Source of the DNA: Saccharomonospora piscinae
GTDB lineage: Bacteria; Actinomycetota; Actinomycetes; Mycobacteriales; Pseudonocardiaceae
DNA: 64,000 bases
Assembly (NCBI RefSeq): GCF_005862235.1
Contig: NZ_VCEK01000005.1
Span: 124,001 to 188,000, forward strand
Reading direction: 5' to 3'
Below, one piece after another: positions 3,868 through 46,023 of the stretch; positions within the stretch are counted from its first letter, which is position 1, and each line of letters starts with the position of its first letter. The notes below the pieces were generated by a model, which saw only the letters and a program-made list of their open reading frames with translations, was not told the origin of the DNA and made no database searches. The position numbers were made by a program, and so were the translations under genes.

Positions 3868-3946
3868 CCGTGTCCGCAGCCTGCGTAGCCGTGTCCGCAG
3901 CTCCCGTAGCCGTGTCCTCAGGCTGGGTAGCCGTGTCCGCACCTCA
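3868..3946 (+). repeat. 21-bp repeat array A (4 units)
   Basis: Four tandem copies of GTGTCCGCAG, five variable bases, GTAGCC, with units beginning at 3870, 3891, 3912 and 3933, exactly 21 apart. Variable bases are cctgc, ctccc and gctgg. The last unit is cut short as GTGTCCGCACCTCACGATGG and contains the stop codon (TCA, 3944-3946) of the minus-strand response regulator. The array fills most of the 112-base gap between that stop and the pseudouridine synthase start. Relative to the gene that ends here its orientation is opposite to that of the other arrays. Confidence 0.9.
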
Positions 3947-4612
3947 CGATGGTCCCCCGCCCGGGACGACCAGGCCCGACTCGTAGGCCAACACCACGAG
4001 CTGGGCGCGGTCGCGAGCGCCCAGCTTCGTCATCGCCCTGCTGACGTGGGTCTTCGCCGTCGCGGGGCTGATCACCATGTGCCCGGCGAGCTCGTCGTTC
4101 GACATCCCACGTGCCACGAGCGCCACCACCTCGCGCTCGCGCGGAGTGAGGCCGTCCAGAGCCGCCGGATGCCGCCCCGAAGGGGGCCGCGCCGCGAACG
4201 TCTCCATGAGCCTGCGCGTGATCCCAGGCGAGAGCAACGCGTCGCCCCGTGCGGCGACGCGCACCGAGTGCAGCAGGTCCACCGGCTCGATGTCCTTGAC
4301 GAGAAACCCGCTCGCGCCGGCCCGCAGGGCGTCGAACACGTACTCGTCGAAGCCGTAGTTCGTCAGCATCACGACGTGGACGCCGGACAGGCGGGCGTCG
4401 GTGGCGACCCGCCGGGTGGCCGCGATGCCGTCGAGGCCGGGCAGCCGGATGTCGACCAGGGCCACGTCGGGAACGTGCTCACCGATCGTGGCGAGGCCCG
4501 CCATCCCGTCGGCGGCCTCGGCGACCACCTCGATGTCGTCCTCGGCGTCGAGTAGCGCCCGGAATCCGCCGCGCACGAGGGCCTGGTCGTCGACGAGCAC
4601 CACCCGGATCAT
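3944..4612 (-). CDS. NarL/FixJ-type response regulator
   Basis: 222 residues. The N-terminal receiver domain has the acidic pair D8/D9, phospho-acceptor D54 (VALVDIRLPG), T84 and K106 (GFLVKD). A LuxR-type helix-turn-helix follows (LTPREREVVALVARGMSNDELA..ISPATAKTHVSRAMTKLGA, about 155-200). It should act as a DNA-binding dimer after phosphorylation by the kinase encoded just upstream; the genes overlap by four bases (ATG 4610-4612 inside the kinase end). No neighbouring transporter reveals the regulon. The C-terminal codons and stop lie at the edge of repeat array A, so the last few residues may have been altered by the repeat. Confidence 0.93.
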   Translation of the reverse strand: MIRVVLVDDQALVRGGFRALLDAEDDIEVVAEAADGMAGLATIGEHVPDVALVDIRLPGLDGIAATRRVATDARLSGVHVVMLTNYGFDEYVFDALRAGASGFLVKDIEPVDLLHSVRVAARGDALLSPGITRRLMETFAARPPSGRHPAALDGLTPREREVVALVARGMSNDELAGHMVISPATAKTHVSRAMTKLGARDRAQLVVLAYESGLVVPGGGPS

Positions 4613-5817
4613 CGGCGTTCCCACGGCAGGACGGCCTCGACGGTGAAACCGCCGTTCGGGCGGGGCTGGGCTCGCAGGGTGCCGCCGAGCGCGGCCGTCC
4701 GCTGCCGCATCCCGCGGAGCCCGAATCCGGGGCTCGGGTCGCTGTCCGGGTGGGCCATCCCGTCGTCGTCGATGCGCACGGTGACAGTCTCGTCGCCGTA
4801 ACCGACGCTGACCCTCGCGGTGTCGGTTCCGGCATGGCGCGCGACGTTGGTCAGCGCCTCCTGCACGATGCGGTAGGCCGTCGCGTCGACGTCGGCGGGC
4901 AGCGGCACGGTGTCGCCGTCGACGGCCACCGTGGTCCGCACACCGGCCGCCGACGCGGAGCGCACCAGCTCGGGCAGCCGGGCCAGGCCGGGGCGGGCGT
5001 CGTCGTGCAGCACGTCGAGCGTCGTCCGCAGCTCGTGGCTCGCGTCCCGGCTCGCCCGCAGCACCGCGAGCAGTGCGTCGGGGACGTCCTCGCCGCGCTT
5101 GCGGGCCAGATGCACCGCGACCTCCGCCTGAATCTTGATCACCGAGATCTGGTGCGTGAGCGAGTCGTGAAGGTCGCGCGCGATGCGGAGCCGCTCCTCG
5201 CCGGCGCGGCGCAGGGCGACCTCCTCGCGGGTCCGTTCCGCCTCGGTGGCGCGAGCCTCCACCAGGGCGAGGCGGGCCCGGCGCTGGCGGGTGACCTCGC
5301 CGAGCACGACGGACGCCACGAACCAGCCCACCGGCAGCACCGCGGCCTGCCACGCCCGCGCTGTCGGCAGGTCGCTCACCGAGGCGAGGTTGTCGGCCAC
5401 CGCGAACACCAGCAACGGGCCCGCCACGGAGACCGCCGCGATCCGGTGGCCTGCCGCGACCGCCGTGTAGAGGGCGACGAGCACCGGAACCGTCGCGACG
5501 GGCCCGGGGTCGGTACGGAGGGTGTAGGCGAGCCCGAACGCGAGGGTCGCCGCCAGGACCACCAGCGGCGCGCGTGACCGGGCGACCAGCGCCGCGCAAC
5601 TCGCGAGCAGGAGCCCGAGGTCGAGCACCCCGGTGTCGTGCGGGCCGAGCACGGCGTCGGCCAGGGCGAACCCGGCCACGCCAACGGCCAGGGCCGTGTC
5701 GAGCGCATCGCCCCGCGTCAGGCGGATCGGGCTCGGCACTCGTGGCAGTGACAACGGCACGAGCGAAGCGTAGACCGTGCGCGGCGCTGGGTAATCCCAC
5801 GACGGGCGTACGACCAC
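4609..5817 (-). CDS. Sensor histidine kinase, HisKA_3 type
   Basis: 402 residues from GTG 5817. Several hydrophobic segments (about residues 38-175) form a membrane sensor without a large extracellular loop. A coiled linker follows, then the HisKA_3 dimerisation helix ERLRIARDLHDSLTHQ with phospho-acceptor His217, and a HATPase domain with N-box QEALTNVARHA, DDDG and GFGLRGMRQR. It is the partner of the response regulator, whose start overlaps its end (ATGA-type coupling). The exact start is uncertain: the first 20 residues are not typical, and a GTG further in (VPLSLPRV) would give a shorter N-terminus. The signal sensed is unknown. Confidence 0.92.
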   Translation of the reverse strand: MVVRPSWDYPAPRTVYASLVPLSLPRVPSPIRLTRGDALDTALAVGVAGFALADAVLGPHDTGVLDLGLLLASCAALVARSRAPLVVLAATLAFGLAYTLRTDPGPVATVPVLVALYTAVAAGHRIAAVSVAGPLLVFAVADNLASVSDLPTARAWQAAVLPVGWFVASVVLGEVTRQRRARLALVEARATEAERTREEVALRRAGEERLRIARDLHDSLTHQISVIKIQAEVAVHLARKRGEDVPDALLAVLRASRDASHELRTTLDVLHDDARPGLARLPELVRSASAAGVRTTVAVDGDTVPLPADVDATAYRIVQEALTNVARHAGTDTARVSVGYGDETVTVRIDDDGMAHPDSDPSPGFGLRGMRQRTAALGGTLRAQPRPNGGFTVEAVLPWERR

Positions 5818-5927
5818 GGGAGTACGTCGGGCGGGCGATCGCCGCCGTCGCGCCGACGCGGAGCGGCCCGGGTGACGGCCACTATCGGCACGACGGCGAA
5901 GTGAGCGAGCGAAGGAGGCGGGACATC

Positions 5928-6548
5928 ATGATGCTCGTCGAGGTCCACACCAGGGCTGGCGTGCTGACGGCGGGACAGCGCGCGGAGATCAACCGGCGGT
6001 TCATCCAGAGCACGACGGGTGACGACGGCGAGGGGCACGCGCCCGAGACACTGCGGGAGGCGCGACGGTGGATGCGGCTGGTGTTCCACGAGGCGGCGGA
6101 CAGCTTCGTCGACGAGGAACGCGAGAGCGGCGACGTGCCGCCCCGGTTCCTGGTTCGGGTGAGTGTGCCCGGGGCCTGGCGTAAGGACACGGCGGGGCAT
6201 CTGATCAAGGAGATGACGCGCGCGCTCGCCGAGGTGGCCTGTGGCGACCGGGCGTTCGAGCAGCCCGACGTCTGGGTGCACGTGCTCGGGGTGCCGGAGG
6301 GCGGCATCGGTGTCTTCGGCACGCCGATGGGGGCCGAGGACCTGGTGCGGCTGCTCACTCGGGCGCACCGGGAGTCCCCGCGGCGCCCCGAGCGAATGCC
6401 GGAGGGAAGCGGTTACGACCCGGTGTGCGGCATGGTGGTGCCGCTGCGTCATGCCGCCGCGGTGGCCGAACACGACGGCGAGACGTACGCGTTCTGCAGC
6501 AAGGGCTGCCACCACGTGTTCACCGAGGACACCGTGTCCGCAGACTAG
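5928..6548 (+). CDS. Tautomerase-like domain fused to YHS metal-binding domain
   Basis: 206 residues. ATG 5928 is chosen because GGAGG lies nine bases upstream (5914-5918). Residues 1-150 resemble the tautomerase (4-oxalocrotonate/CaaD-like) fold: a beta-alpha-beta start MLVEVHTRAGVLTAGQRAEI and a second half PDVWVHVLGVPEGGIGVFGTPMGAEDLVRLL. The N-terminal catalytic proline of true tautomerases is not visible after the Met, so that activity is doubtful. Residues 160-200 are a YHS domain (DPVCGMVV..ETYAFCSKGCHHVF) with Cys residues that in relatives bind metal. The final codons (DTVSAD) and the TAG stop are formed by a 21-bp repeat unit. It is convergent with the SorC regulator. A combined function is unknown. 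Confidence 0.8.
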   Translation: MMLVEVHTRAGVLTAGQRAEINRRFIQSTTGDDGEGHAPETLREARRWMRLVFHEAADSFVDEERESGDVPPRFLVRVSVPGAWRKDTAGHLIKEMTRALAEVACGDRAFEQPDVWVHVLGVPEGGIGVFGTPMGAEDLVRLLTRAHRESPRRPERMPEGSGYDPVCGMVVPLRHAAAVAEHDGETYAFCSKGCHHVFTEDTVSAD

Positions 6549-6608
6549 GTAGCCGAGTTCGCACCGCACGATGCGGACACGGCTACGCGGGCTGCGGACA
6601 CGGCGTCA
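6532..6608. repeat. 21-bp repeat array B (head-to-head, 2+2 units)
   Basis: Two forward units (GTGTCCGCAG at 6534, a degenerate one at 6555) and two inverted units (ACACGGCTAC at 6577 and the start of another at 6598) meet around CCGCACGATGCGG. The halves are imperfect inverted repeats about 33 bases long with a short loop. The array spans the stop codons of the two convergent genes: TAG 6546-6548 of the YHS fusion and TGA (complement of 6606-6608) of the SorC regulator. It could serve as a two-way terminator. Confidence 0.85.
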
Positions 6609-7589
6609 GGGGGCGGGCGGGCGGCGGGCGGCCAGGTCGAGAACCTCCCTGGCCGTCTCGGCGTCGGTGATGAGGGTCGTCACCGTCTTCGAGCGCAGCA
6701 CCGCGTCGATGGCCTCGGCCTTCGGGGTGGTGTAGCCGAGCGCGATCACCTCGGGAACGCGGCGGAGTTCGTCGTGGCTGACGGCGAGCACATGGTGCGA
6801 CAGGCCGGTGTCGAGTGCGTTGCCGTCGGCGTCGAACAGCCGGGCGGCCACCTCGGCCTTCGCGCCGCGGGCGCTGATGGCGTCGCGTTCGGCGGCCGAC
6901 AGGGCGTCGTACACGGTGGACTCGCCCTCCCGCCACGCGCCGATGCTGACGACCGCCTTGGTGAGGTTGCGGTAGCGGCGGAAGGTTTCCACGATGCCGG
7001 GCTGGCGGCGCAGGATGTCGGTGGTGCGCCGGTCGGGCAGCACGAGCGGCGCGTAGATCGGATACGACTCGCCGCCGGCGACCGTCGCCAGCCGGGACAC
7101 GGTCTCCACGGTCCGGTCGCGCATGTCCATGCCGGCCTGCACTCCGCAGAGCTGGACGATGGGGCACCGGGGAAGTGCGCGGATGTGCTCGGTCATGACG
7201 TTGACCGACCGGGCCCACGACAGGCCGATGACGTCGTCCCTGGTGGCCAGTTCGGTGAGCAGGCGGGCGGCGACGACGCCGACGCGCTGCCGGAGCTGCG
7301 GCCGGGTCTCCCCGTCCTGCGCTCGTTCGAGCACGAGTGCGCGACGGAGACCGTACGCGGCGCGCAGCTCGCCGGACAGGCCCGGCTCGACGGGTTCGGG
7401 TAGCGAGAACTCGATGCGGACCAGGCCGGTTTCCCTGGCACGGTCGAGGATGCGCGCGATCCGGAACCGGCTGATGCCGAGGTCCTGCGCGATCTCGACC
7501 TTGGAGTCCCCCTGTACGTAGAAGCGGTGGGCGATGGTGGCTGCTTCGACGGCGTCAAGCAGGTTCCACGGGCGATTTCGTCCGCTCAT
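6606..7589 (-). CDS. SorC-family sugar-responsive transcription regulator
   Basis: 327 residues, the usual SorC size. An N-terminal helix-turn-helix (VQGDSKVEIAQDLGISRFRIARILDRARETGLV, about 26-58) precedes a sugar-binding, NagB-like domain (VLERA..VGVVAARLL..GLSWARSV, IVQLCGVQ, and the C-terminal VIALGYTTPKAEAIDAVLRSKTVTTLITD). Regulators of this type tetramerise and respond to phosphorylated sugars or polyols. It is transcribed divergently from the dehydrogenase/ABC operon, and one of three palindromes in the intergenic region covers its own start codon (7587-7589), suggesting autoregulation. Its stop is followed by the same bases, TGACGCCGTGTCCGCAGCCC, that end the NDH-2 gene at 34508. Confidence 0.92.
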   Translation of the reverse strand: MSGRNRPWNLLDAVEAATIAHRFYVQGDSKVEIAQDLGISRFRIARILDRARETGLVRIEFSLPEPVEPGLSGELRAAYGLRRALVLERAQDGETRPQLRQRVGVVAARLLTELATRDDVIGLSWARSVNVMTEHIRALPRCPIVQLCGVQAGMDMRDRTVETVSRLATVAGGESYPIYAPLVLPDRRTTDILRRQPGIVETFRRYRNLTKAVVSIGAWREGESTVYDALSAAERDAISARGAKAEVAARLFDADGNALDTGLSHHVLAVSHDELRRVPEVIALGYTTPKAEAIDAVLRSKTVTTLITDAETAREVLDLAARRPPAP

Positions 7590-7700
7590 CTGAGCAGATT
7601 AGCATCCCGTTACCGAGGTGATGTTGACGTATCGGCCGAAAAAGTCGTTCAATGCCTGCGCATCTGAGAATCAACTAAGGGCAATATGCTCATATGAGCA
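7583..7700. promoter_or_regulatory. Three palindromic operator-like sites, divergent SorC/dehydrogenase promoter region
   Basis: CGCTCATCTGAGCA (7583-7596, over the sorC start), TGCGCATCTGAGAA (7657-7670) and the perfect palindrome TGCTCATATGAGCA (7687-7700) match one another at 11 or 12 of 14 positions. Start-to-start distances are 74 and 30 bp, close to seven and three helical turns. A possible plus-strand promoter is TTGACG (7624-7629), 18 bases, TTCAAT (7648-7653), which would place transcription start at the middle site. They are the likely binding sites of the adjacent SorC protein; this is inference. Confidence 0.65.
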
Positions 7701-7717
7701 GGGGAAGGTGGGCTTCC

Positions 7718-8716
7718 ATGCGTGCGGCTGTCGTGGACGAACCCGGGAGAATCAGGGTCGGTGACGTGGGCGAACCGAAGCCCGGGCCCGCCGACGTCGT
7801 CATCCGCGTGGGCGCGTGTGGCATCTGCGGCACAGACCTGCACATCGCCGACGGCCACTTTCCCCCGACGCCGTATCCGATCGTGCCGGGTCACGAGTTC
7901 GCGGGCGAGATCGTGGAGGTCGGCCAGGACGCCCCCGGCGGGTGGGCGGTGGGTGACCGCGTCGCCGTGGACCCGTCGCTGTTCTGCGGTCACTGCGGTC
8001 CCTGCCGGGCCGGGCACGGCAACCTGTGCGCCAACTGGGGTGCCACCGGAGACACGGTGGACGGTGCGTTCGCCGAGTACGTGGCCGTTCCCGCGTCGAC
8101 CTGTCACCGCATGCCCGAGGGCATGACGTTCGCGCAGGGCGCACTGGTGGAGCCGGTGTCGTGCGCGGTCCACGGCATCCGGCGGGTCGGTGTGGAGGCG
8201 GGGGAGCGGTTCCTCGTCATGGGCGCGGGCACGATGGGCCTGATCCTGCAGCAGTTGCTGCTGCGCGCCGGGGCCAAGGTCACGGTGGTGGACCGCAACG
8301 CGGACCGGCTGCCGAGGGCCACGCGCCTCGGTGCGGACGCCGTCGCGGGCGACGCCGCCGAACTGGACGGTGAGACGTTCGACGCCGCGGTGGACTGCAC
8401 GGGCGCGGTGCCCGCCATCGAGGCCGCCTTCGACCGGGTGCGCCGGGGTGGGCGGCTGCTGGTGTTCGGTGTCGCGCCGGAGGAGGCGCGGGTGTCGCTG
8501 TCGCCGTTTCGCATCTACAACGACGAGATCACCATCGTGGGGTCGATGGCCGTGCTGCACAGCTACGGCGCCGCGCTGGACCTCGTCGCGCAGGGCGCCG
8601 TCGACACCGACGAGCTGGTGACCCACTCGCTGCCGCTGGAGCGCTTCGGTGAGGCGCTGGAGCTGATGCGCGGTGGCACCGGTCTCAAGATCCAGGTTGT
8701 TCCGGGGGGCGAGTGA
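7718..8716 (+). CDS. Zinc-dependent medium-chain alcohol/polyol dehydrogenase
   Basis: 332 residues. NAD(P)-dependent oxidation of a sugar alcohol or related alcohol is expected. It shows the catalytic-zinc ligands GACGICGTDLHIADG and PGHEFAGEIVEVG, the structural-zinc Cys set CGHCGPCRAGHGNLC, and a Rossmann segment VMGAGTMGLILQQLLLRAGAKVTVVDRN. I take ATG 7718 (MRAAVVDEPG), which has GGGGAAGG about ten bases upstream; ATG 7694 is in frame but lies on the palindrome 7687-7700. It heads an operon with a substrate-binding protein and two permeases (four-base overlaps), so it probably oxidises the imported polyol. Sorbitol/L-iditol-type specificity is likely but not proven. Confidence 0.92.
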   Translation: MRAAVVDEPGRIRVGDVGEPKPGPADVVIRVGACGICGTDLHIADGHFPPTPYPIVPGHEFAGEIVEVGQDAPGGWAVGDRVAVDPSLFCGHCGPCRAGHGNLCANWGATGDTVDGAFAEYVAVPASTCHRMPEGMTFAQGALVEPVSCAVHGIRRVGVEAGERFLVMGAGTMGLILQQLLLRAGAKVTVVDRNADRLPRATRLGADAVAGDAAELDGETFDAAVDCTGAVPAIEAAFDRVRRGGRLLVFGVAPEEARVSLSPFRIYNDEITIVGSMAVLHSYGAALDLVAQGAVDTDELVTHSLPLERFGEALELMRGGTGLKIQVVPGGE

Positions 8717-10080
8717 GGATGCGCCGAGCACAGGGTGGACGCCGACGTCGCCGCTTGCCCCTGCTCCTCGTGGCCGCGCTGCTCGCCGTGCCGGGGTGCG
8801 CGGGCGCGGGTGCGCTCGGCGCGGACGGTGGGGCACTGACCATCGCCATCGTGGCCAACCCGCAGATGAACGACGCGATCGCGCTGTCGGACCGGTTCGA
8901 GCGCGAACACGGCGTCGAGCTGAACTTCGTGTCCCTGCCCGAGAACCAGGCTCGTGCCAAGATCACGGCCTCCACGGCGACCCAGGGCGGCGAGTTCGAC
9001 CTCGTGATGATCAGCAATTACGAGACGCCGCAGTGGGCGGCCAACGGCTGGCTGACCGATCTCGGGCCCTATCTCGAGGCGAACCCGGACTACGACGCCG
9101 ACGACTTCATCCCCAGCATCCGGGACGCGCTGTCCTACGAGGACTCGATGTACGCGGTGCCGTTCTACGGTGAGTCGTCGTTTCTCGCCTACCGCGAGGA
9201 CCTGTTCGAACAGGCGGGGCTGACCATGCCGGAGAACCCGACGTGGGAGCAGATCGCCGAGTTCGCCGCCGTCCTCGACGACGACGAGGCCGGGGTGGCC
9301 GGGATCTGCCTGCGCGGCAAACCCGGCTGGGGAGAGAGCCTGGCGCCGTTCACGACGGTGGTGAACACCTTCGGCGGGCAGTGGTTCGACCAGGACTGGA
9401 ACGCGCGACTGACCTCGCCGGAGTTCCGGGAGGCGGCCGAGTTCTACGTGAACCTGGTGCGCGAGCACGGCCAGGTGGGTGCCTCCAACGCGGGATTCAC
9501 CGAGTGCGGCACGCGCTACACACAGGGCGAGGCCGCCATGTGGTACGACGCCACGGTCATGGCCGGGACCAACGAGGATCCCGCCAGCAGCAAGGTCGTC
9601 GGCAAGTCCGGCTACGCGCCCGCCCCGGTGATGGACACCGAGGCGAGCGGCTGGCTCTACACGTGGTCGCTGGCGATCCCGGCGAGCACCGAGGACAAGG
9701 ATCTCGCGTGGGAGTTCCTGAGCTGGATGACCGACAAGGACTACGTGCGCCTGGTCGGTGAGGAACTGGGGTGGAACCGGGTGCCGCCGGGCTGCCGCCA
9801 GTCGACCTACGAGATCCCGGAGTACCTCGAGGCGGCGAGCGCGTACGCGCAACCGACGCTGGACGGGATCTCGCACGCGAACCAGGACGAGACCATGACC
9901 GAACCGGTGCCCTACGAGGGCATCCAGTTCGTGGGCATTCCCGAGTTCCAGGACCTGGGCACCCGGGTGAGCCAGCAGCTCTCCGCCGCCATCGCCGGGC
10001 AGCAGTCCGTGGACGAGGCGCTGCGGCAGTCACAGGAATACGCCGAGACCGTCGGCGAGTCGTACCGGGAGACCCGATGA
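8713..10080 (+). CDS. ABC transporter sugar/polyol-binding lipoprotein
   Basis: 455 residues. The N-terminus is a lipoprotein signal (RRRRRLPLLLVAALLAVPGC) with the acylated Cys in VPGC. The mature protein is a family-1 extracellular solute-binding protein with typical features, for example LTIAIVANPQMNDAIALSDRFE, FDLVMISNYETPQWAANGWLTDL, MYAVPFYGESSFLAYREDLFEQAG and EAAMWYDATV. Start GTG 8713 overlaps the dehydrogenase stop by four bases; ATG 8719 is an alternative. It delivers the ligand to the two permeases that follow. Similarity is to binding proteins for sorbitol/mannitol-type polyols; the ligand is inferred from the dehydrogenase context. Confidence 0.92.
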   Translation: MRMRRAQGGRRRRRLPLLLVAALLAVPGCAGAGALGADGGALTIAIVANPQMNDAIALSDRFEREHGVELNFVSLPENQARAKITASTATQGGEFDLVMISNYETPQWAANGWLTDLGPYLEANPDYDADDFIPSIRDALSYEDSMYAVPFYGESSFLAYREDLFEQAGLTMPENPTWEQIAEFAAVLDDDEAGVAGICLRGKPGWGESLAPFTTVVNTFGGQWFDQDWNARLTSPEFREAAEFYVNLVREHGQVGASNAGFTECGTRYTQGEAAMWYDATVMAGTNEDPASSKVVGKSGYAPAPVMDTEASGWLYTWSLAIPASTEDKDLAWEFLSWMTDKDYVRLVGEELGWNRVPPGCRQSTYEIPEYLEAASAYAQPTLDGISHANQDETMTEPVPYEGIQFVGIPEFQDLGTRVSQQLSAAIAGQQSVDEALRQSQEYAETVGESYRETR

Positions 10081-18511: not shown

Positions 18512-19425
18512 CCCGCCGCCAGCGCCACGGCGACGATCGCGACGTCGGCCGCCAGCACCACCGGCATCACGCTCCGGCGCAGCACGGTGGAGCGTGCGCG
18601 CTCTCCCGCGGCCAGCCGCCGCGCGAGCAGGACCACCGTGGCGACGAACACCAGGTGCCCGCCCGCGCCGACCAGGGCCACCACGGGTCCGGCCGGACCG
18701 CCGTACCACCACAGTCCCCACGTCAGGCAGGTCAGCCCCGCCACGAGCACGGGCAGGGCCAGGCCCAGCGCGCGCACGGCCCCGTGCCGCACGCTGGTGG
18801 TGCGCTGTCCCGCGGCGGCGTCGGCCGCGCGGTCGGGCACCGACCACCACACGACCCGGCCCGCCGCCAGCAGCGTCAGCCCCGCGTACACCAGCGCGGT
18901 GGCCGTCCCGACGGTGGGGCTCACCGCGGCGTGGGCGGTGAGGCACGGCAGGGCGACCACTCCGGCCGCGAACACCGCGGCGCCCGGCAGTCCCCGTGTC
19001 TTGAGCCGGACCGGTTCGACGTTGTACAGCACGTGGGCGGCGACCGTGCCCGCCGCCGCCACGGCGCAGAGCCAGTGCCCTGTGTGGACGGACGCGGCCA
19101 CGGCCAGCGCGAACCCGAGCGCGAACTCGGCCGTGGCCAGCCGCAGCCCGGCTCGCCTGCCGAGCCGCCGGGTCGCCGAGGCCAGTGTGCCGCGTTCGGC
19201 GTGCCGCGCGTCGCTGTCGAGGTCGGCCACGGAGTTCAGCACCAGACCGGCCTCCATGAGCACCACGTTGGCCACCACCACGAGCACCGGGCCCACCGCC
19301 AGCATCCCGGCCGGGGCGGTGACGGCGAAGCACGCGCCGAAGAGGGCCTGGCACAGCGTGTTGAGCCAGAACGGGAACTCCAGCCGGTGCACGGCCGCGA
19401 GGTCGCGGGCCGTCAGTCCCGGCAC
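18508..19425 (-). CDS. UbiA-family prenyltransferase or terpene cyclase
   Basis: 305 residues with about eight or nine membrane helices. Both aspartate motifs that bind the prenyl diphosphate through Mg2+ are present: N64-xxx-D68-xxx-D72 (NSVADLDSD) and D198-xxx-D202 (PDRAADAAAGQRTT). The intervening YNVEPVRLKTRGLPG loop, characteristic of UbiA enzymes, is also present. Start GTG 19425 overlaps the P450 end by 13 bases, making it the last gene of a coupled three-gene operon with a class II diterpene cyclase. It may transfer a cyclised or linear prenyl group to an acceptor, or act as a membrane-bound class I cyclase as known for some UbiA relatives. The product is unknown. Confidence 0.88.
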   Translation of the reverse strand: MPGLTARDLAAVHRLEFPFWLNTLCQALFGACFAVTAPAGMLAVGPVLVVVANVVLMEAGLVLNSVADLDSDARHAERGTLASATRRLGRRAGLRLATAEFALGFALAVAASVHTGHWLCAVAAAGTVAAHVLYNVEPVRLKTRGLPGAAVFAAGVVALPCLTAHAAVSPTVGTATALVYAGLTLLAAGRVVWWSVPDRAADAAAGQRTTSVRHGAVRALGLALPVLVAGLTCLTWGLWWYGGPAGPVVALVGAGGHLVFVATVVLLARRLAAGERARSTVLRRSVMPVVLAADVAIVAVALAAG

Positions 19426-33217: not shown

Positions 33218-34510
33218 GTGCCCCATCGCATTGTGATCGTCGGAGGAGGCTATGTCGGCCTCTACACCGCGCTGCGGCTGCAGAAGGGACTGCGGCAGGG
33301 CGAGGCCGAGGTGACGGTGGTCAACCCCGAGAACTTCATGGCCTACCGGCCGCTGTTGCCGGAGGTCGCCTCCGGCACCCTCGAACCCCGGCACGCGGTG
33401 GTGCCGTTGCGCGCGGTCCTGCGGGGGACGCACTTCATCTGCGGTGCCCTGACCGGCATCGACTCCGAGCGCCGGGTCGCGACGGTGCAACTGGAGGCGG
33501 GCCCGCCGCGTGAGCTGGAGTACGACCAGCTGGTGCTGGGGCTCGGCGCGACGTCGAAGCTGTTGCCCGTGCCGGGACTCGCCGAGCGGGGCATCGGCTT
33601 CAACTCGCTCGCCGAGGCGGCCCACCTGCGTGATCACGTGCTGGGCCAGCTGGAGATCGCGGCGGCCACCACCGACCCCGAGCTGCGGCGTTGCGCACTG
33701 ACGTTCGTGTTCGTGGGCGGCGGCTACACCGGTGTGGAAGCCATCGCGGAACTGCAGGACATGGCGCTCGACGTGCTGGAGGGCTATCCGGAACTCGACC
33801 GCACCGAGATGCGCTGGATTCTCGTGGAGGCGATGGACCGCATCCTCGGCACCGTCAGCGAGGACCTCGCCGACCTGGCGGCCACCGAACTCACCGCACG
33901 CGGCATCGACATCCGCACCGGCACGCTGCTGGAGTCGGCCGAGAACGGTGTCCTCCAGCTCTCGGACGGCACCAAGCTCGCGTCCGACACGCTCGTGTGG
34001 GTCGCGGGCACGCGACCGCAGAGCATCGTGGGCAGGCTCGGGCTGCCCGTCGACGAGCGCGGGAGGCTCGTGGTCGACGACACCCTCCGGGTACACGGGC
34101 GCAGCGACGTCTGGTCGGCGGGGGACTGCGCCGCGGTGCCCGACCCGGAGCAGGGCGGCACGTGCCCGCCCACCGCTCAGCACGCCGTGCGCCAGGCCCA
34201 GCAACTCGGCGACAACCTGCTGCTGACGGTGCGCGGGCAGGCCGTGAAGCCGTTCCGCTACAACAGCAGGGGCGAGTTCGTCACGCTGGGGAAGAACAAG
34301 GCGGTGGGCGAGGTGCTCGGGCGAAAGGTCAACGGCACGCTCGCGTGGACGCTGCGCCGCGCCTACTACGCCACGCAGATCCCGACGTGGAACCGCACGG
34401 TGCGCGTACTCGGCGACTGGGCCGTCGGTATGCCCTTCGGCCACGACGTCGTGGACTTCGGCTCGCGTGAGCAACCCCGGGGCGCGTTCCAGGAGGCCGC
34501 CGACCGCTGA
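33218..34510 (+). CDS. Type II NADH dehydrogenase (NDH-2 family)
   Basis: 430 residues from GTG 33218 with GAGGAGG upstream. Membrane-associated flavoprotein that passes electrons from NADH to quinone without proton pumping. It shows the FAD motif RIVIVGGGYVGLYTALRLQ, the NADH site FVFVGGGYTGVEAIAELQD (about 165) and SDVWSAGDCAAVPDPEQGG..PPTAQHAVRQ, the quinone-site region with the AQHAVRQ motif. The C-terminal amphipathic segment is RRAYYATQIPTWNRTVRVLGDW. The stop at 34508 is directly followed by repeat array C. Confidence 0.93.
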   Translation: MPHRIVIVGGGYVGLYTALRLQKGLRQGEAEVTVVNPENFMAYRPLLPEVASGTLEPRHAVVPLRAVLRGTHFICGALTGIDSERRVATVQLEAGPPRELEYDQLVLGLGATSKLLPVPGLAERGIGFNSLAEAAHLRDHVLGQLEIAAATTDPELRRCALTFVFVGGGYTGVEAIAELQDMALDVLEGYPELDRTEMRWILVEAMDRILGTVSEDLADLAATELTARGIDIRTGTLLESAENGVLQLSDGTKLASDTLVWVAGTRPQSIVGRLGLPVDERGRLVVDDTLRVHGRSDVWSAGDCAAVPDPEQGGTCPPTAQHAVRQAQQLGDNLLLTVRGQAVKPFRYNSRGEFVTLGKNKAVGEVLGRKVNGTLAWTLRRAYYATQIPTWNRTVRVLGDWAVGMPFGHDVVDFGSREQPRGAFQEAADR

Positions 34511-34656
34511 CGCCGTGTCCGCAGCCCACGTAGCCGTGTCCGCAGCTCCCGTAGCCGTGTCCGCAGCCCACGTAGCCGTGTCCGCAGGCTGGGTAGTCGT
34601 GTTCGCAGGCTGGGTAGTCGTGTTCGCAGGCTGGGTAGTCGTGTTCGCATTTCGCG
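34511..34656 (+). repeat. 21-bp repeat array C (7 units)
   Basis: Seven units start at 34515, 34536, 34557, 34578, 34599, 34620 and 34641, all exactly 21 apart. The first four carry GTGTCCGCAG with GTAGCC, and the fifth onward GTGTTCGCAG with GTAGTC, so two subtypes have each been amplified. Variable bases are cccac, ctccc, cccac, then gctgg three times. The array begins directly after the NDH-2 stop, in the same orientation as that gene, and ends 25 bases before the DinB-like gene. Confidence 0.93.
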
Positions 34657-35207: not shown

Positions 35208-35325
35208 ATTCCGCTACACAGCCTGCGGACACGGCTACGCAGGCTGAGGACACGGCTACGCAACCTGCGGACACGGCTACGCAGGCTGAGGACACGGCTA
35301 CGCAGGCTGAGGACACGGCTACTTC
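35208..35325 (-). repeat. 21-bp repeat array D (5-6 units)
   Basis: Units on the minus strand, seen on the plus strand as ACACGGCTAC, begin at 35229, 35250, 35271, 35292 and 35313, exactly 21 apart, with a degenerate sixth at 35208. Four variants have GTGTCCTCAG and two GTGTCCGCAG. The stop codon TAG of the Gre-like gene (complement of 35319-35321) is supplied by the GTAGCC end of the first unit. Orientation is the same as that gene. Confidence 0.93.
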
Positions 35326-35780
35326 GGGAGGACCAGGCTCACGATCTCCGCTGTGGCCTCGCCGCGCGGGGTTCGGTAGGTGATGGTGTCGCCCTCCTGG
35401 TGGTCCGCGATGGCGTGACCGAGGGGGCTGTCGGCCGTCAGCGTCGAGGTGTCGTCCTCCGCCTCGTCGGCGACGCCGACCACGAGCATGTCCTCGGTGC
35501 TGCCGTCGTCGAAGCGCAGCGTCACCCTCGTGCCCGACGGCAGCCCGGTCTCCGGCTCGACCGTGGCGGCCCCGTGCAGCAGGTCGGTCACCTCGCTGAT
35601 CCGGCGGTCGAGCCGGGAGGCCACCTCGGCGCGTTCGAGCAGGTCGGCCTGGTCGGCGCTGTCGCCGAGCGGGTCGTCACCGAGCCGGGGTGCCAGTGCG
35701 GCGCGCTGCTGGCGCAGCTGCTCCAGTTCGCGCTCCAGCCGCGCACGGGTGGCCGGGCTCAGGCCTGGGGTCGACGTCAT
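35319..35780 (-). CDS. GreA/GreB-like transcription factor
   Basis: 153 residues. The N-terminal antiparallel coiled coil (ATRARLERELEQLRQQRAALAPRL, then LLERAEVASRLDRRISEVTDLL) has an acidic tip DDPLGDSADQADLL, comparable with the catalytic tip of GreA that enters the RNA polymerase secondary channel. The C-terminal Gre domain is GTRVTLRFDDGSTEDMLVVG..LTADSPLGHAIADHQEGDTITYRTPRGEATAEIVSLV. It may rescue backtracked polymerase or act as a Gre paralogue with another role. Start ATG 35780 is chosen at MTSTPGLS; upstream in-frame codons look non-coding. The stop lies in a repeat unit. Confidence 0.86.
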   Translation of the reverse strand: MTSTPGLSPATRARLERELEQLRQQRAALAPRLGDDPLGDSADQADLLERAEVASRLDRRISEVTDLLHGAATVEPETGLPSGTRVTLRFDDGSTEDMLVVGVADEAEDDTSTLTADSPLGHAIADHQEGDTITYRTPRGEATAEIVSLVLPK

Positions 35781-35824
35781 GGCCCCATTGTCCGGCCAGT
35801 GAACCCGGCTCGCCACGTGTCCCG

Positions 35825-38209: not shown

Positions 38210-38253
38210 GACACGGATTGTGCCTGCCCCCGCTCCGCGCCCATGATGGCCCC

Positions 38254-39924: not shown

Positions 39925-39931
39925 CCCGCGC

Positions 39932-40780: not shown

Positions 40781-40919
40781 AATCGCGGATGGTAGCCCGG
40801 AAACCCGACCGGATGAATCGGTTCGCCCGGTGTGGGAAACCCGGCCCGGCAGCGCGGGATTCTGTCCGCCCCCGCTGATAGTTCAGAGGGCACCACATCA
40901 CCACACAGGGGAGGCAGCG

Positions 40920-41306
40920 ATGGTGAAGGCACTGGTGGCCACGTCGGCGACCCAGGGGTTCCGGGACAGCGACTATCACTGGTGTGTCGAGGGGGAGTTG
41001 GTGTGGATCGCCCCCACGTGCGTCAAGGACCGCGACGACCCGGACGGTGGCTGCGGGTGCGGGCGGGGCTTCGCGGGGCTGTCCTCCCACCGGGCGACCA
41101 CCACCGCGATGGTGAGCACGCTGCACGGCATCAGCCGCGACGACTACGTGATGGTGCTGCGGTCGAGTGTGGAGGAACAGGGTTACGACCTGGCCGACGT
41201 GACAGGGCTGGCCGACTCGTTGCTCGACCTGGTCGCCGACCTGCCCGACGGTGCCGTGCTCGAACACCGTCTCGACTATGTGCAGGTCAGGCAGGGGGTT
41301 CCGTGA
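40920..41306 (+). CDS. Conserved actinobacterial protein of unknown function
   Basis: 128 residues. ATG 40920 has AGGGGAGG seven bases upstream. The N-terminal part MVKALVATSATQGFRDSDYHWCVEGELVWIAPTC precedes a Cys-rich loop (DPDGGCGCGRGFAGLSSHRATTTAMV). The second half, VEEQGYDLADVTGLADSLLDLVADLPDGAVLEHR, looks helical. Three or four cysteines close together suggest a metal site, but no ligand pattern is familiar. No signal or membrane helix. It overlaps the convergent PPOX gene by 20 bases. Confidence 0.75.
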   Translation: MVKALVATSATQGFRDSDYHWCVEGELVWIAPTCVKDRDDPDGGCGCGRGFAGLSSHRATTTAMVSTLHGISRDDYVMVLRSSVEEQGYDLADVTGLADSLLDLVADLPDGAVLEHRLDYVQVRQGVP

Positions 41307-41874
41307 CGCCGCCCGCCTCGCTGCGGTCGGCCAGCGCGGGCAATCCGTCGATGCTGTGAGCGTTCCTGGTCCGCTGGTATTCGGCCAGGTTCTCCGGCGT
41401 CCTGCGGCCGTTGTGCCGGGACAGCAGGTCGCGGTCGCCCTGGTAGGCGAGTAGGGGGACGGCGAACCCGCACGAGTCGCTGATCCGCTCCACGGAGACG
41501 TCGATGATGGCCCGCAGGGCGGGATGCGGCGTGGTGTCGAAGCTCTCGAGGAGGTCGTCGAAACCGGGCGAGTCCGCGAATACCGGCGTGCCGGTGCCGT
41601 GCAGGCGCACGATGTTCGGTGGGCCCTCGAAGGCGCAGAACATCAGCACGATCCGGCCGTTGTCCCGCAGGTGAGCGATGGTCTCCGCGCCGCTGGCCGT
41701 GTAGTCGAGATAGGCGACGCGATGATCGCCGAGAATCGCGAGGCTGCCCGCGAGACCCTTCGGGGAGACGTTGACGTGCCCGTCGGTGGCGGTGGGCGCG
41801 GTGCCGACGAAGAACACCGGCTGCGCGAGCACGAACTCCCGGAGCCGTTCGTCGAGACGGTCGTGCAGCTTCAT
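41287..41874 (-). CDS. Pyridoxamine 5'-phosphate oxidase-family flavin protein
   Basis: 195 residues from ATG 41874 (MKLHDRLDERL). Split-barrel flavin fold: FVLAQPVFFVGTAPTATDGHVNVSPKG, LGDHRVAYLDYTASGAETIAHLRDNGRIVLMFCAFEGPPNIVRLHGTG. This subgroup is annotated as PPOX-class or general-stress FMN-binding proteins in actinobacteria. Substrate is unknown; F420 or FMN use cannot be told by eye. The C-terminal NGRRTPENLAEYQRTRNAHSIDGLPAL is typical of the subgroup. Confidence 0.88.
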   Translation of the reverse strand: MKLHDRLDERLREFVLAQPVFFVGTAPTATDGHVNVSPKGLAGSLAILGDHRVAYLDYTASGAETIAHLRDNGRIVLMFCAFEGPPNIVRLHGTGTPVFADSPGFDDLLESFDTTPHPALRAIIDVSVERISDSCGFAVPLLAYQGDRDLLSRHNGRRTPENLAEYQRTRNAHSIDGLPALADRSEAGGVTEPPA

Positions 41875-42017
41875 CGGAACTCCGTTCGCGTGGTGCCAGG
41901 CGCTCGTGACCCTACGCTCGTGCGCGAGGGTGCGGAACCGTCGACGTCTGGTCACGAACCCGGCACGTTGCCTTCCTAGCGTGAGGGTCGACCGTTCGAT
42001 CGACCTGGGGAGAGCCG

Positions 42018-43766
42018 ATGTCCGTCGCCGTGGAGGAAGCGCCCGTCAGGCGGGCAGGTGACATCGCCGAACGAGTGCCGCCCCGGCGGGACGGCACGGG
42101 CCGCTTCCTCCCGGGGACGGCCGCGGTGCTGGGAGGTACCGCCGCCATCGCGGGGCACGCCTCGCTCTACGGCAACTGGCTCGTCGACGACGCGGCCATC
42201 ACCTTCGCCTACGCGCGCTCGCTCGCCGAGGGCTTCGGGCCGGTGCTGCAGCCCGGAGCCGAGCCGGTCGAGGGGTTCTCGAATCCGAGCTGGCTGCTGC
42301 TGCTCGCCCTCGGACGGCTACTCGGGCTGTTCGACCGGGGCACCATCGCGGGGATTCCCGACTACGTGCTCTTCCCGAAGGGGCTCGCGCTGCTGTGCTG
42401 CGCGGGGATTCTGGTGCTCTGCCACCTGGTGTTCCGCCGGGTGGTGCGGCGGGCGTGGCTCGCGACCGCGCTGGCAGGCGCCGCGCTGGCGGCCCTGCCG
42501 TCGTTCGTGATCTGGAGTTTCTCGGGACTGGAGAACTCCCTGTACGCGCTGCTGGTCACCGCACTGGCGAGTGTTCTGGTCCGAGCGGTGCTGGACGGGA
42601 GAACGCTGGCCGTGCCGGTGGCCGTCGGCGCGGGTGTGCTGGCGGCTCTCGCGGCCCTGACCCGCCCCGACGGACTGATCTACGTCGCGGCGTACCCGAT
42701 CGTGGCCGTGTGGCTGGGGCGCGGCCGCTGGGTGACGGTGGCGCGTCGCGCCGGGCTGTCGGTGCTGACGTTCGCCGTCCCCGTGACAGCGTTGCTGGTC
42801 TGGCGGCTCGTCGTGTTCGGCCGGTGGCTGCCGACCACGTCGGTCGCCAAGCGACAGGACCTGCCGACTCCGGCGGACATGATGGCGACCGGGGACCTCG
42901 TGGCCTACGCCGGGGCGCCCGCCGTGCTCGCGGTCGTCGCGCTCGTTGTCACGGTGCGGGCGCGCAGGCCGTGGTGGTGGCCGGTGCTGGCTGTGCTGTT
43001 CGTGCTCGCGGGACTGGCCGCGGCCGCGTACTCGGTCCTGGAGCGGGACTGGATGGCACAGCACCGCTTCGCCACACCGCTGTGGGTGCTGACGGTGCTG
43101 ATCGGCACGCTCGTCGTGGCCGAGGTGCTGCGTCGTTCCCGCGGACGGCGGCGGATCGTGGTGACGGCGACGCTCGTCGTCGCGGCGAGCGGGTCACTGA
43201 CGTCCTACGCGCAGAGCGCGCACGACTTCCGCGAGCAGGTCGATGTCCCGGCCTGTTATGTCGCCGACCGGCTGGGGCGCGGCTTCAACGCCTACGCCGA
43301 CATCCTCGGCGTCGAGCGGGGCACACTGCTGTTGCCGGACCTGGGCGGATCGGCCATGACCAGCAGGTTGCGGCTCGTCGACATGGCCGGGCTGGCCGAA
43401 CCCACGATCGCCGCCTTCCTCCGCGACAGCGACAAGAGCGGGTTGCGCGACTACGTTCTCGACGAGGTCAAGCCCACTTTCATCCACTCGCGGGGCCCGT
43501 GGAGCGCGGGCAACGGCATCCCGTCGGACCCACGCCTGAGCCGCGACTACCACGTGCTGTACCGGTATCCGAACGATGACCCACCGAACGGTGACTGGGT
43601 CCGCAAGGACGCGGTGAGCAGTCAGCAGGCGCTGGCCGAAGCGCGGGAGTACGGACAGCGCGTGCTGGGGGAGGTGGATCGTCGGTCCGGTGGCTGGGAC
43701 ACCCGGCACTGCGGAGCGACCCTGCATCCCGGCCAGACGGAAGTGGGCACGCTGGTCCTCGACTGA
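42018..43766 (+). CDS. GT-C membrane glycosyltransferase, AftB-like
   Basis: 582 residues with about ten membrane helices then a C-terminal periplasmic domain (about 405-582). The GT-C acidic motif follows the first helix: NWLVDDAAITFAYARSLAEGFGPVL (DDA, about 55), then EPVEGFSNPSWLLLLALG. This matches the polyprenyl-phosphate-arabinose-using AftB group, which caps arabinan with beta-1,2 arabinofuranose. A second conserved spot is LTRPDGLIYVAAYP. Twenty bases upstream is the inverted repeat GGTCGA..TCGACC (41986-42005). It sits in an envelope gene neighbourhood with the Emb protein at 46021. AftB identity is inference. Confidence 0.8.
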   Translation: MSVAVEEAPVRRAGDIAERVPPRRDGTGRFLPGTAAVLGGTAAIAGHASLYGNWLVDDAAITFAYARSLAEGFGPVLQPGAEPVEGFSNPSWLLLLALGRLLGLFDRGTIAGIPDYVLFPKGLALLCCAGILVLCHLVFRRVVRRAWLATALAGAALAALPSFVIWSFSGLENSLYALLVTALASVLVRAVLDGRTLAVPVAVGAGVLAALAALTRPDGLIYVAAYPIVAVWLGRGRWVTVARRAGLSVLTFAVPVTALLVWRLVVFGRWLPTTSVAKRQDLPTPADMMATGDLVAYAGAPAVLAVVALVVTVRARRPWWWPVLAVLFVLAGLAAAAYSVLERDWMAQHRFATPLWVLTVLIGTLVVAEVLRRSRGRRRIVVTATLVVAASGSLTSYAQSAHDFREQVDVPACYVADRLGRGFNAYADILGVERGTLLLPDLGGSAMTSRLRLVDMAGLAEPTIAAFLRDSDKSGLRDYVLDEVKPTFIHSRGPWSAGNGIPSDPRLSRDYHVLYRYPNDDPPNGDWVRKDAVSSQQALAEAREYGQRVLGEVDRRSGGWDTRHCGATLHPGQTEVGTLVLD

Positions 43767-43767
43767 C

Positions 43768-45237
43768 CTACTCGGCGACGGCGGTCTCGGCGGCCAAGGT
43801 GGCCTCGGCGGGCTCGCGCGGCAGCCGCACCGTGAACACCGCGCCACCGGAGTTCGCCACCGTGATCTCGCCTCCGTGCGCGGCGATGTTCGCCGAGGCG
43901 ATCGCCAGGCCCAGGCCCGTGCCGTCTCCGCCGCGAGCGCGTTCGCCCCGCGTGAAGCGGTCGAAGAGCACGGGCAGCAGGTTTTCGGGGACACCGGGGC
44001 CCCGGTCCGCGACGCGGATCAGCACCGCGTCCGGGCCGGTGCCGTCGATCTCGACCGAGACGGGCGGGGCGCCGTGCGCCAGCGCGTTGGCGACCAGGTT
44101 GCCGATCACTGTGTGCAGGCGGCGAGGATCGGCCGTCACCGCGACCTCGCCGGTGGCGCTGACCCGTACGTCGGCACCCGGGGCCAGCAGCGAGACGGCG
44201 TCGTCGACCAGGCCGGGCAACTCGATCCGGTCGGTCCGCAGCTCGGCCGTGCCCGCGTCGAACCGCGAGATCTCCAGCAGGTCCTCGACGAGGCGGGCCA
44301 GCCGCCGGGTCTGGGCGGCGAGCAGGTCGGCGGAGGTGTCCCGCGTCGCGGGGTCGCGGAGGCTGTCGACCGACGCCACCATCGTGGCGACCGGAGTGCG
44401 CAGGTCGTGCGCGGCGTCGGCGACGAATCGCCGCTGCTGCTCGTCCTTGACATGCAACTGGCCGATCACCTCACCCAGCCGTTGCGCCATGTCGTTGAAC
44501 TCCCTGGCGAGCTCGGCCAGCTCGTCGTGGCCGCGGACCGGCAGGCGCACGTCGAACTCGCCCGCGCCGAACCGCCGGGCGGCCTGGGCCGTGGCCCGCA
44601 CCGGCCGCTGGGCGAAGTGCGCCGCCACGACCGCGGCCAGCACCGACACCGCTGTCACCGCCCCGGCGACCACCGCGAGAGTGTGCCGCAGCGTCGACAG
44701 ATCGTCGTGCAGCCGCCGCATGCTGTACTGCTCGACGAGAACCAGGTCCGGCTCCAGGAGTCCCGCCACCAGGTACACCGGGCCGTGCTGGTTGCGCCAC
44801 GCGACGGAGGTGGTCTCACCCGTGCGGGCTCGCTGCGCTAGCCACGCCGGAATGGCGAACTCCAGCGAGCGAACCGAGACGGTGTCGGAATCGGTGGTGG
44901 AGTAGGTGGCCTGATGAGGAACGAAGCGCTGGTCCCCGGTCTCGAAGACGTAGACCGCCCACTCCATACCCTGCCGCTGGTCGACGAACCGCACGACCTG
45001 CTCGATCCGGTTGCCGCTCGTGCTGTGGACCCGGGCCCGTGCCTGTTGGAGGTCGGAATCGAACCCGACCTCCGCCGAGGTAATGAAGCGCTCGGTGGCG
45101 GAGTCGGACTGCAGCTCGTACACCACCAGCCCCATCGTGGTCGTTCCCGCGGCGCACACCACGGCGACGGCGACGGCGATGCGGGCACGCAACCCGAGGC
45201 GGCGCCTGCTCCGGCGTCCGGGGCGGCGTCGCGTCAT
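43768..45237 (-). CDS. Sensor histidine kinase with HAMP domain
   Basis: 489 residues. Two membrane helices (about 20-40 and 187-208) bracket a 145-residue extracellular sensor. HAMP (RPVRATAQAARRFGAGEFDVRLPVRGHDELAELAREFNDMAQRL) leads to HisKA with phospho-acceptor His277 (FVADAAHDLRTPVATM) and HATPase (NLVANALAHGAPP, RVADRGPGVP, FTRGERARGGDGTGLGLAIA). The response regulator gene upstream overlaps by four bases. It converges with the GT-C gene with a single base between the stops. The sensor shows no known domain; an envelope signal is plausible given the flanking arabinan genes. Confidence 0.93.
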   Translation of the reverse strand: MTRRRPGRRSRRRLGLRARIAVAVAVVCAAGTTTMGLVVYELQSDSATERFITSAEVGFDSDLQQARARVHSTSGNRIEQVVRFVDQRQGMEWAVYVFETGDQRFVPHQATYSTTDSDTVSVRSLEFAIPAWLAQRARTGETTSVAWRNQHGPVYLVAGLLEPDLVLVEQYSMRRLHDDLSTLRHTLAVVAGAVTAVSVLAAVVAAHFAQRPVRATAQAARRFGAGEFDVRLPVRGHDELAELAREFNDMAQRLGEVIGQLHVKDEQQRRFVADAAHDLRTPVATMVASVDSLRDPATRDTSADLLAAQTRRLARLVEDLLEISRFDAGTAELRTDRIELPGLVDDAVSLLAPGADVRVSATGEVAVTADPRRLHTVIGNLVANALAHGAPPVSVEIDGTGPDAVLIRVADRGPGVPENLLPVLFDRFTRGERARGGDGTGLGLAIASANIAAHGGEITVANSGGAVFTVRLPREPAEATLAAETAVAE

Positions 45238-45923
45238 GGCTTCGTCAACCGGTAGCCGAGGCCGCGCACCGTCTTGAGCACGGCGGGCTTGCCCGGATCA
45301 TCCTCGATCTTCGCCCGCAGCCGCGCCACCGCGGCGTCCACCAACCGGGAGTCGCCGACGTAGCCGTAGTCCCACACGCGCCGCAACAGCGACTGCCGGG
45401 ACAGCACCTGACCGGCGTGGTCGGCGAACTCCAGCAACAGCCGCGTTTCGACGGCGCTCAGCGCCAGTTCCTCCCCGTGCCGCGTCGCCACCATCGCGGC
45501 GCGGTCGATCTCGATGGACCCGACCCGCAACACCGGTGGAGTGGCGGCGGACGGGGCCGAGACCCGGCGCAGCACGGCTTTCACCCTGGCGTCGAGCACG
45601 CGCGGTTCCGCGGGTTTGACCACGTAGTCGTCGGCGCCGCACTCCAGGCCCGCCACGACGTCGATGGGGTCACCTCGCGCGGTGAGCAGGATGATCGGTG
45701 TGGTGAGGGAGCCGCGCGCGCGTCGGCACACCTCGAAGCCGTCCACGCCGGGAAGCATGAGGTCGAGCACCACGACGTCGATGGCACGGCGTTCGTGCAG
45801 CAGTGTCCGCAGTGCGGCTTCGCCGGAACGCTCCACCGTCACGTCGTGGCCCAGCCGGGTCAGCGCGAGGTCGAGCGCGGTCGCCAGTGCGTCGTCGTCC
45901 TCCACCAGCAAGATCGCGGGCAT
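45234..45923 (-). CDS. OmpR/PhoB-type response regulator
   Basis: 229 residues from ATG 45923. The receiver has the acidic triad in LLVEDDD, phospho-acceptor D54 (VVLDLMLPGVDGFEV), TARG and the KPAEP loop. A winged-helix DNA-binding domain follows (LALSAVETRLLLEFADHAGQVLSRQSLLRRVWDYGYVGDSRLVDAAVARLRAKIEDDPGKPAVLKTVRGLGYRL). Note KPAEP in place of the usual KPF. It is co-transcribed with the kinase. Upstream is repeat array E, which belongs to the end of the Emb gene. Confidence 0.94.
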   Translation of the reverse strand: MPAILLVEDDDALATALDLALTRLGHDVTVERSGEAALRTLLHERRAIDVVVLDLMLPGVDGFEVCRRARGSLTTPIILLTARGDPIDVVAGLECGADDYVVKPAEPRVLDARVKAVLRRVSAPSAATPPVLRVGSIEIDRAAMVATRHGEELALSAVETRLLLEFADHAGQVLSRQSLLRRVWDYGYVGDSRLVDAAVARLRAKIEDDPGKPAVLKTVRGLGYRLTKP

Positions 45924-45965
45924 GGGTGGCGAGCTTAGTGCGGTCGTTCTTGGCGGATCGCGGGA

Positions 45966-46023
45966 GCTGCGGACACGACTACGTGGCCTGCGGACACGGC
46001 TACGCAGGCTGCGGACACGGTTA
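45966..46023 (-). repeat. 21-bp repeat array E (3 units)
   Basis: Minus-strand units, seen as ACACG(A/G)CTAC on the plus strand at 45973, 45994 and as ACACGGTTAC at 46015, are exactly 21 apart. The stop codon TAA of the Emb gene (complement of 46021-46023) is formed by the GTAACC variant end of the first unit. The array separates the Emb gene from the response regulator promoter and follows the Emb gene's orientation. Confidence 0.92.

Follow-up and report, generated by a model that had tools for sequence, protein, structure and literature searches.

Polar 21-bp box arrays behind genes of Saccharomonospora piscinae and some relatives: candidate 3'-end elements

A stretch of 64,000 nucleotides from the genome of Saccharomonospora piscinae (assembly GCF_005862235.1, contig NZ_VCEK01000005.1, positions 124,001 to 188,000), hereafter the window, carries five dispersed arrays of a 21-bp tandem repeat, which raises the question of what such arrays are and what they might do at the places where they are found. 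An earlier note on this DNA had counted about 23 units in exact 21-bp phase, and all five arrays were indeed confirmed at their places with that phase, holding 4+3+7+5+3 = 22 nine-base boxes plus one degenerate box at 6555-6563. Judged from their sequence and placement, the arrays may be polar elements of gene 3' ends, either terminators or insulators, that are read by a protein and homogenised by recombination; we put this reading forward tentatively, as quite possible although short of probable.

A genome-wide search, which the earlier note had named beforehand, disclosed further arrays amounting to hundreds of units. The exact 21-bp unit pattern was matched 321 times (158 + 163) in the S. 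piscinae genome (G000 among the genomes compared; 4.90 Mb in 11 contigs), and the same pattern read backwards had no match in that whole genome. Within the window, the pattern with up to two mismatches gave 20 matches, 18 of them within the five arrays (17 perfect and one with a single mismatch); the other two, at 18955 and 46132, carry two mismatches each and look like chance, the expectation from 100 shuffles being 0.31 with a maximum of 2. The phase is strict: same-strand box pairs up to 70 bp apart were spaced by 21, 42 or 63 bp in 242 of 250 cases in the S. piscinae sample, with none at 20 or 22, and in 73 of 75 cases in other genera. The same share was lower in five relatives (38/47 to 59/65, but 47/62 in G010 and 28/37 in G011).

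The fixed 16-base frame with which the unit had been described did not prove general, being local to S. piscinae and two relatives: its two-unit GTAGYC form was found in 3 of 390 genomes of the family, whereas a pattern made of the core only gave at least 27 matches in 12 of them. Constant from genus to genus is a box of 8 bases, GTGTYBGC (mostly GTGTCCGC), which keeps the strict 21-bp phase and has a spacer that drifts. In the carriers, C strongly predominates at the two free positions of the box and the spacer drifts over most of its length, the GTGT and the final GC being fixed by the search pattern itself; a G eight bases past the box is near-constant, Actinophytocola excepted. Most units of S. 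piscinae contain GTAG, and units of the GCACGC and GTACGC types dominate in the relatives G001, G002 and G003. At orthologous gene ends of relatives, other frames were found that also recur every 21 bp, such as GTGTCCGCAGCCTGTGTACGC in G003 and GTGTCCGCGAGTTGCGCACGC in G001. The most divergent dialect is that of the Actinophytocola metagenome-assembled genome (MAG; G386, loci L118-L122), with a spacer near GCCCCAG and the G eight bases past the box lost. Two draft contigs of S. piscinae start inside arrays, C3 (L036:1-120) and C4 (L068:1-175), and the array at the C3 start has six boxes and a different spacer (TGCGGACAC gactccctgact); assembly breaks may fall at arrays.

Where the arrays lie with respect to genes was analysed with a codon-model gene finder trained on S. 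piscinae and applied to all genomes, in which stops are safer than starts. None of the 50 arrays of the S. piscinae sample was inside a predicted gene, while 90% of the DNA was predicted to be coding, and over ten genomes this was the case for 1 of 96 arrays, on which ground a coding repeat was rejected; the idea that the arrays are carried into proteins is not supported, and they can instead overlap stop codons as described below. The 87 arrays that could be classed in the ten genomes occupy 33 convergent, 45 tandem and 9 divergent gaps, to be compared with intergenic base shares of 15%, 49% and 36%, respectively (gaps of at least 40 bp), which amounts to a convergent excess (p=3e-7) and a divergent deficit (p=7e-8) in a sample of which part (L058-L075, other genera) was chosen because it bears arrays, the base shares being taken from the same stretches. 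Eight arrays stood outside the gap classes because a neighbour was missing or the gap exceeded 900 bp.

The arrays are also polar. The nearest box at gene 3' ends was in sense orientation in 82 cases and antisense in 29, and there was no preference at gene 5' ends (33 to 30). A sample of 1731 gene ends not picked by array was drawn from the window, positions 1-440000 of contig C3 of S. piscinae and syntenic stretches in five relatives. Sense boxes there numbered 8 over the 60 bp preceding the stop and 38 over the 10 bp that follow it, with more sense peaks at 20-29, 40-49 and 60-69 bp past the stop; antisense boxes over those 10 bp past the stop numbered 2. Counted over 126 array 5' ends, 63 fall between -25 and +15 bp of a sense stop, and among these 63 the box starts 4 bp past the stop in 16 and 2 bp past it in 9. 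As would be expected of terminators, the arrays are just behind genes and enriched between convergent genes, and their placement tracks gene 3' ends rather than being random. Neither outcome by which the earlier note would have stood refuted, random placement or a lack of further arrays, was thus observed.

The five arrays of the window are the following.

3870..3949, plus strand: array 1, made up of full units at 3870-3932 (three), one more box at 3933-3941 and, at 3942-3949, half of a head-to-head centre (CCTCACGA).
6534..6603, no single strand: array 2, head-to-head, between convergent genes.
34515..34649, plus strand: array 3, with six units and a seventh box, sense to the oxidoreductase gene 33218-34510.
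35212..35322, minus strand: array 4, with five boxes that run in the sense direction of a GreA/GreB-like gene (35319-35816, minus strand).
45968..46023, minus strand: array 5, with three boxes that run in the sense direction of an arabinosyltransferase gene (46021-49041, minus strand).

Array 3 begins 4 bp past the oxidoreductase stop, and at arrays 2, 4 and 5 the stop codons overlap the first unit or the partial unit preceding the first box. In array 2, which consists of a plus unit (6534-6554), the degenerate plus box, a centre (6564-6571) and two minus boxes (6572-6580 and 6593-6601), the first unit holds the stop TAG (6546-6548) of a plus-strand YHS-domain gene, and the stop of the minus-strand gene, which encodes a sugar-binding regulator domain, lies 4 bp beyond the last box (6606-6608). 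The stop TAG of the GreA/GreB-like gene (35319-35321) forms part of the GTAG of array 4, and the stop TAA of the arabinosyltransferase gene (46021-46023) falls within GTAACC immediately before the first box of array 5. Array 1 is the exception among the window arrays, lying antisense on the 3' side of a minus-strand response-regulator gene (3944-4624); it is probably what remains of an array that once had two arms. A scan of the window against Rfam 15 at the gathering score gave nothing at the arrays. Its only match was an adenosylcobalamin (AdoCbl, cobalamin) riboswitch at 63571-63719 (60.7 bits), upstream of a plus-strand gene at the window edge.

Two-armed arrays such as array 2 have a head-to-head centre of the form GTGTYCGC-R-YCGYRCGR-Y-GCGRACAC, which is found in Saccharomonospora, Prauserella and Amycolatopsis arida. 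Centres of this fixed spacing, each of which is matched on both strands, numbered 24 in S. piscinae and 63 across the eight array-rich genomes of the genus, and none was found in the other four genomes of the genus or in the control. By orientation, 29 of the 87 classed arrays are head-to-head, 1 is tail-to-tail and 57 are of single polarity.

These centres bring up the possibility that the arrays are intrinsic hairpin terminators, in which the RNA of the centre and of the units would fold and halt RNA polymerase unaided by any protein; this we consider improbable. In agreement with that possibility, the head-to-head centre folds at -18.9 kcal/mol (z -5.2), a strong hairpin was present in 12 of 27 array-bearing convergent gaps, and idealised four-unit arrays of G001, G003 and G010 beat shuffles (z -3.75, -2.99 and -2.75). 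Nevertheless, the idealised arrays of S. piscinae, G389 and G386 fold no better than shuffles (z -0.17, -0.21 and +0.98), so that the hairpin proposed in the earlier note, although possible, is no shared feature, the z values spanning -3.75 to +0.98 over seven genomes. The varying stem pairs of the 63 centres (55 distinct) match no better than shuffled letters, with pairing in 87.6% of cells versus 87.4% and double changes in 26 cells versus 25.8, in a test that rests on four varying pairs of eleven, the pattern fixing the rest, and on one fixed centre spacing. No terminator-like site with a GC-rich stem and a T-run was found in three regions covering the five window arrays, and the 57 arrays of single polarity are not two-armed. 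Because there is no covariation in the centre and no T-run after the window arrays, the sequence, and not an RNA structure, seems to be conserved; the conserved word and phase point to recognition by sequence.

The comparison with gene ends that lack arrays bears on the same question. Strong hairpins were defined by a cut-off of -25 kcal/mol with shuffles, given that at -18 kcal/mol 86% of random windows pass. Of 142 convergent gaps free of arrays, 70 held such a hairpin, versus 10 of 142 shuffled ones; outside the array itself, 1 of the 27 array-bearing convergent gaps holds one. The arrays share with bidirectional intrinsic terminators their place between convergent genes and a centre that can fold into a hairpin, but they differ from them in lacking a T-run and pairing covariation, in having repeated phased boxes and in being mostly of single polarity.

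How the arrays are distributed was surveyed in 390 genomes of the family with the core-only pattern, CGTGTCCGC-N12-CGTGTCCGC, whose reversed control never gave more than one match per genome and strand. The pattern was matched in 25 genomes, 12 with at least 27 matches and 11 with one, the remaining counts being 4 in G184 and 3 in G127. The 12 array-rich genomes comprise 8 of the 12 genomes of the window's genus together with Prauserella shujinwangii (G341), Qaidamihabitans albus (G340), A. arida (G389) and the Actinophytocola MAG; also among the matches listed were Saccharomonospora sp. NB11, the MAG DX1.bin91 and single matches in unrelated taxa. When a triple-box pattern was searched in 394 genomes drawn from the class, S. 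piscinae matched, and G405 matched once.

We then ask whether the arrays keep their positions between species. At the gene end of array 3, an array is present in 8 of 12 genomes of the genus, each starting 2 or 4 bp past the stop as judged by eye. With reciprocal-best gene-end orthologs, an array in S. piscinae predicted one in G001 (4/11 versus 3/140, p=5e-4), in G002 (3/3 versus 2/34, p=0.001) and in G011 (3/3 versus 2/28, p=0.002), while sharing was unclear for G003 (2/9 versus 4/106, p=0.07) and G010 (1/6 versus 2/89, p=0.18); an earlier test on adjacent gene pairs had given one or two positives per species. When only gaps of at least 60 bp were taken, the p values were 0.03 for G001, 0.13 for G002, 0.17 for G011, 0.23 for G003 and 0.29 for G010. 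By eye, several arrays on contig C3 of S. piscinae stand at gene ends where relatives have none, and some of these array-free ends of relatives show a GC-rich inverted repeat instead. The results on position sharing indicate therefore that some array positions are old and that others have been gained or lost.

The content of the arrays does not follow their position. Over five hand-picked loci, the spacer match was 0.62 to non-orthologous units of the same genome and 0.52 to orthologous arrays of other species, and of 167 comparisons, which depend in part on one another, 129 gave the larger match within the genome; as far as these sequences tell, array content is species-specific. In agreement with an exchange of content, the same two-armed array was found in G010 at 534, 803 and 3423 kb, with 100% identity over 155 bp and 97% over 220 bp, and the edge of the similarity lies about 3 bp or less from the shorter copy's outermost boxes, the flanks being unrelated. 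Six genomes were searched for the 803-kb position: the four with a long match to the flanking gene (S. piscinae, G001, G002 and G008) also have boxes there, reduced in G002 and G008, while G003 gave no match and G011 a match of 50 bp. Boxes in four other species at this position make it likely that an old array there was replaced by a copy of another; elsewhere, the insertion of new arrays is possible. A non-autonomous transposon (MITE) would have terminal inverted repeats and a target-site duplication; the three G010 copies end near the outermost boxes, and no consistent duplication was seen by eye at them, in a comparison that offered no alignable empty site. Where they align, the relatives are mostly 75-84% identical. 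The mobile repeat offered in the earlier note was half right, in that a whole array has been copied between loci, but the one checkable locus has boxes in four other species, which suggests the replacement of old arrays as much as insertion. Two Prauserella arrays about 21 kb apart (L108:10608 and L109:11545) have similar upstream flanks, unlike the G010 copies, and are perhaps a duplicated gene with its array.

The copying gives weight to a serious rival explanation, namely a selfish interspersed repeat without host function that spreads by copying and persists harmlessly behind genes, its phase arising by slippage and its polarity by its mode of origin. The patchy distribution, with 12 of 390 family genomes array-rich, the three copies of one composite array between unrelated flanks in G010 and the several S. 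piscinae arrays at ends where relatives have none are all in agreement with it. On the other hand, positions are common to several species at several gene ends, the sense bias and the start 2-4 bp past stops exceed what tolerance needs, and no transposase tracks the arrays, the domain Y1_Tnp being present in 3 of the 8 genomes of the genus that are array-rich and in 1 of the 4 that are array-poor. A tolerated selfish repeat is, on balance, unlikely in our judgement.

The same domain bears on the resemblance to repetitive extragenic palindromes (REPs). In the account given in PMC3733652, REPs are palindromes of 20-40 bp with a GTAG or CGTC tag, and GTAG-tagged REPs often give flanking open reading frames a TAG stop. 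The arrays resemble REPs and bacterial interspersed mosaic elements as described there in being short, many-copy and extragenic, in their possible location at gene ends and in their head-to-head and tandem arrangements, and array 4 too supplies a TAG stop. They differ in having an asymmetric box and a spacer on a strict 21-bp phase without conserved pairing; GTAG is absent from most relatives' units, tandem units fold inconsistently among species and the centre folds without covariation. The distribution of the REP-associated tyrosine transposase (PF01797, Y1_Tnp), which array-rich G010 lacks altogether, together with the absence of covariation, led to the rejection of a REP with Y1 transposase. 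S. piscinae itself has a full Y1_Tnp gene at C4:159916-160278 (an open frame of 227 aa versus 136-138 aa in relatives) and a partial one at C7:48201-48344, and the full gene has a head-to-head array at a distance of about 2 kb. Clustered regularly interspaced short palindromic repeats (CRISPR) have unique spacers and stand next to cas genes. Judged by period and spacers, the arrays do not agree with them: their period is 21, against the repeat size of 24-48 bp given in PMC3733652, and their partly conserved spacers recur at many loci.

The strict helical phase would also fit a DNA-organising array, that is, sites bound by a protein of the nucleoid or of segregation, WhiA for instance, and lying behind genes merely because the DNA is free there, an explanation that we hold to be very improbable. 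It is favoured by the G010 chromosome, in which 10 of 48 array loci lie in the half centred opposite dnaA (dnaA at 98-1892; p=6e-5), so that the terminus half is avoided, but unit density is close to the average in the part of the S. piscinae genome that is syntenic to the terminus region of G010, which holds 33 of the 321 exact units in 440 of 4898 kb, and the polarity follows genes. WhiA binds the short, asymmetric site GACAC as a monomer, according to PMC3781837, and GACAC is the complement of the GTGTC in the box; however, boxes with GTGTT do not contain GTGTC, the WhiA sites treated in PMC3781837 are described at promoters and not as 21-bp arrays, and WhiA is described as occurring throughout Gram-positive bacteria, whereas the arrays are not so widespread. 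As an array-binding protein WhiA is a lead that comes from the resemblance of the motifs.

Two further systems are worth comparing. Neisseria DNA uptake sequences are a short fixed word that stands in head-to-head pairs at gene ends and can act as a terminator, but they are not known to form tandem 21-bp arrays. Mycobacterial interspersed repetitive units (MIRU), also from actinobacteria, are tandem repeats between genes and may directly adjoin a stop codon, but their units are much longer and are not known to have the box-and-spacer phase or a head-to-head centre. Among the papers listed by a literature search, which were part of those that matched, none describes this 21-bp box family, which does not prove its absence from print.

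We return to the tentatively preferred reading of protein-read elements at 3' ends. In it, each GTGTYBGC box would be read by its sequence by a putative protein, on DNA or on nascent RNA, and the 21-bp spacing would put the boxes on one face of the DNA helix. A sense array directly past a stop codon would stop or insulate transcription, and between convergent genes the two arms would meet head-to-head, each transcript entering its own sense arm. Recombination between arrays would exchange content among loci, leaving some positions old and the unit sequences homogenised within each species. Both the protein and its function are what we infer, as is gene conversion as the route of copying. The strict phase speaks for recognition on DNA, although a period is also kept by slippage alone, and the sense bias speaks for recognition on RNA. 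As functions, termination, 3'-end protection and insulation from converging transcription would each fit. Among the functions offered earlier, a protein-binding array appears to fit best and the hairpin idea is unsupported.

Several observations weigh against this reading, in addition to the narrow base of the covariation test. An antisense array is present at 29 of 111 gene 3' ends, 9 of the 87 classed arrays are in divergent gaps, and the sense excess of single-polarity arrays in tandem gaps is modest (23 to 9, p=0.02). Position sharing is significant in 3 of 5 relatives, and in 1 of 5 when gaps of at least 60 bp are taken. The argument that arrays replace hairpins is weak, as a median of 23 bp is left outside the array in the array gaps; at least 40 bp is left in 8 of the 27, 1 of these with a strong hairpin. 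Finally, by the core-only pattern the arrays are absent from four species of the genus, and the element is therefore not essential.

The end of transcription in actinobacteria of high GC content is poorly explained, since a classical hairpin with a T-run is missing at many gene ends. A stronger claim, which we regard as doubtful though worth stating, is that the arrays are a previously undescribed, protein-read polar signal for ending transcription, made of helically phased tandem boxes, which would occupy ends that can hold hairpin terminators in relatives, with recombination keeping the copies alike, a spacer dialect in each species and a box fixed across genera. If the arrays are indeed a sequence-constrained, polar, repeated 3'-end element, the protein could be sought with the box as bait and the arrays could be tried as terminators, and their shared positions and exchanged content over many short dispersed loci would be a kind of homogenisation that is unusual for a bacterial chromosome.

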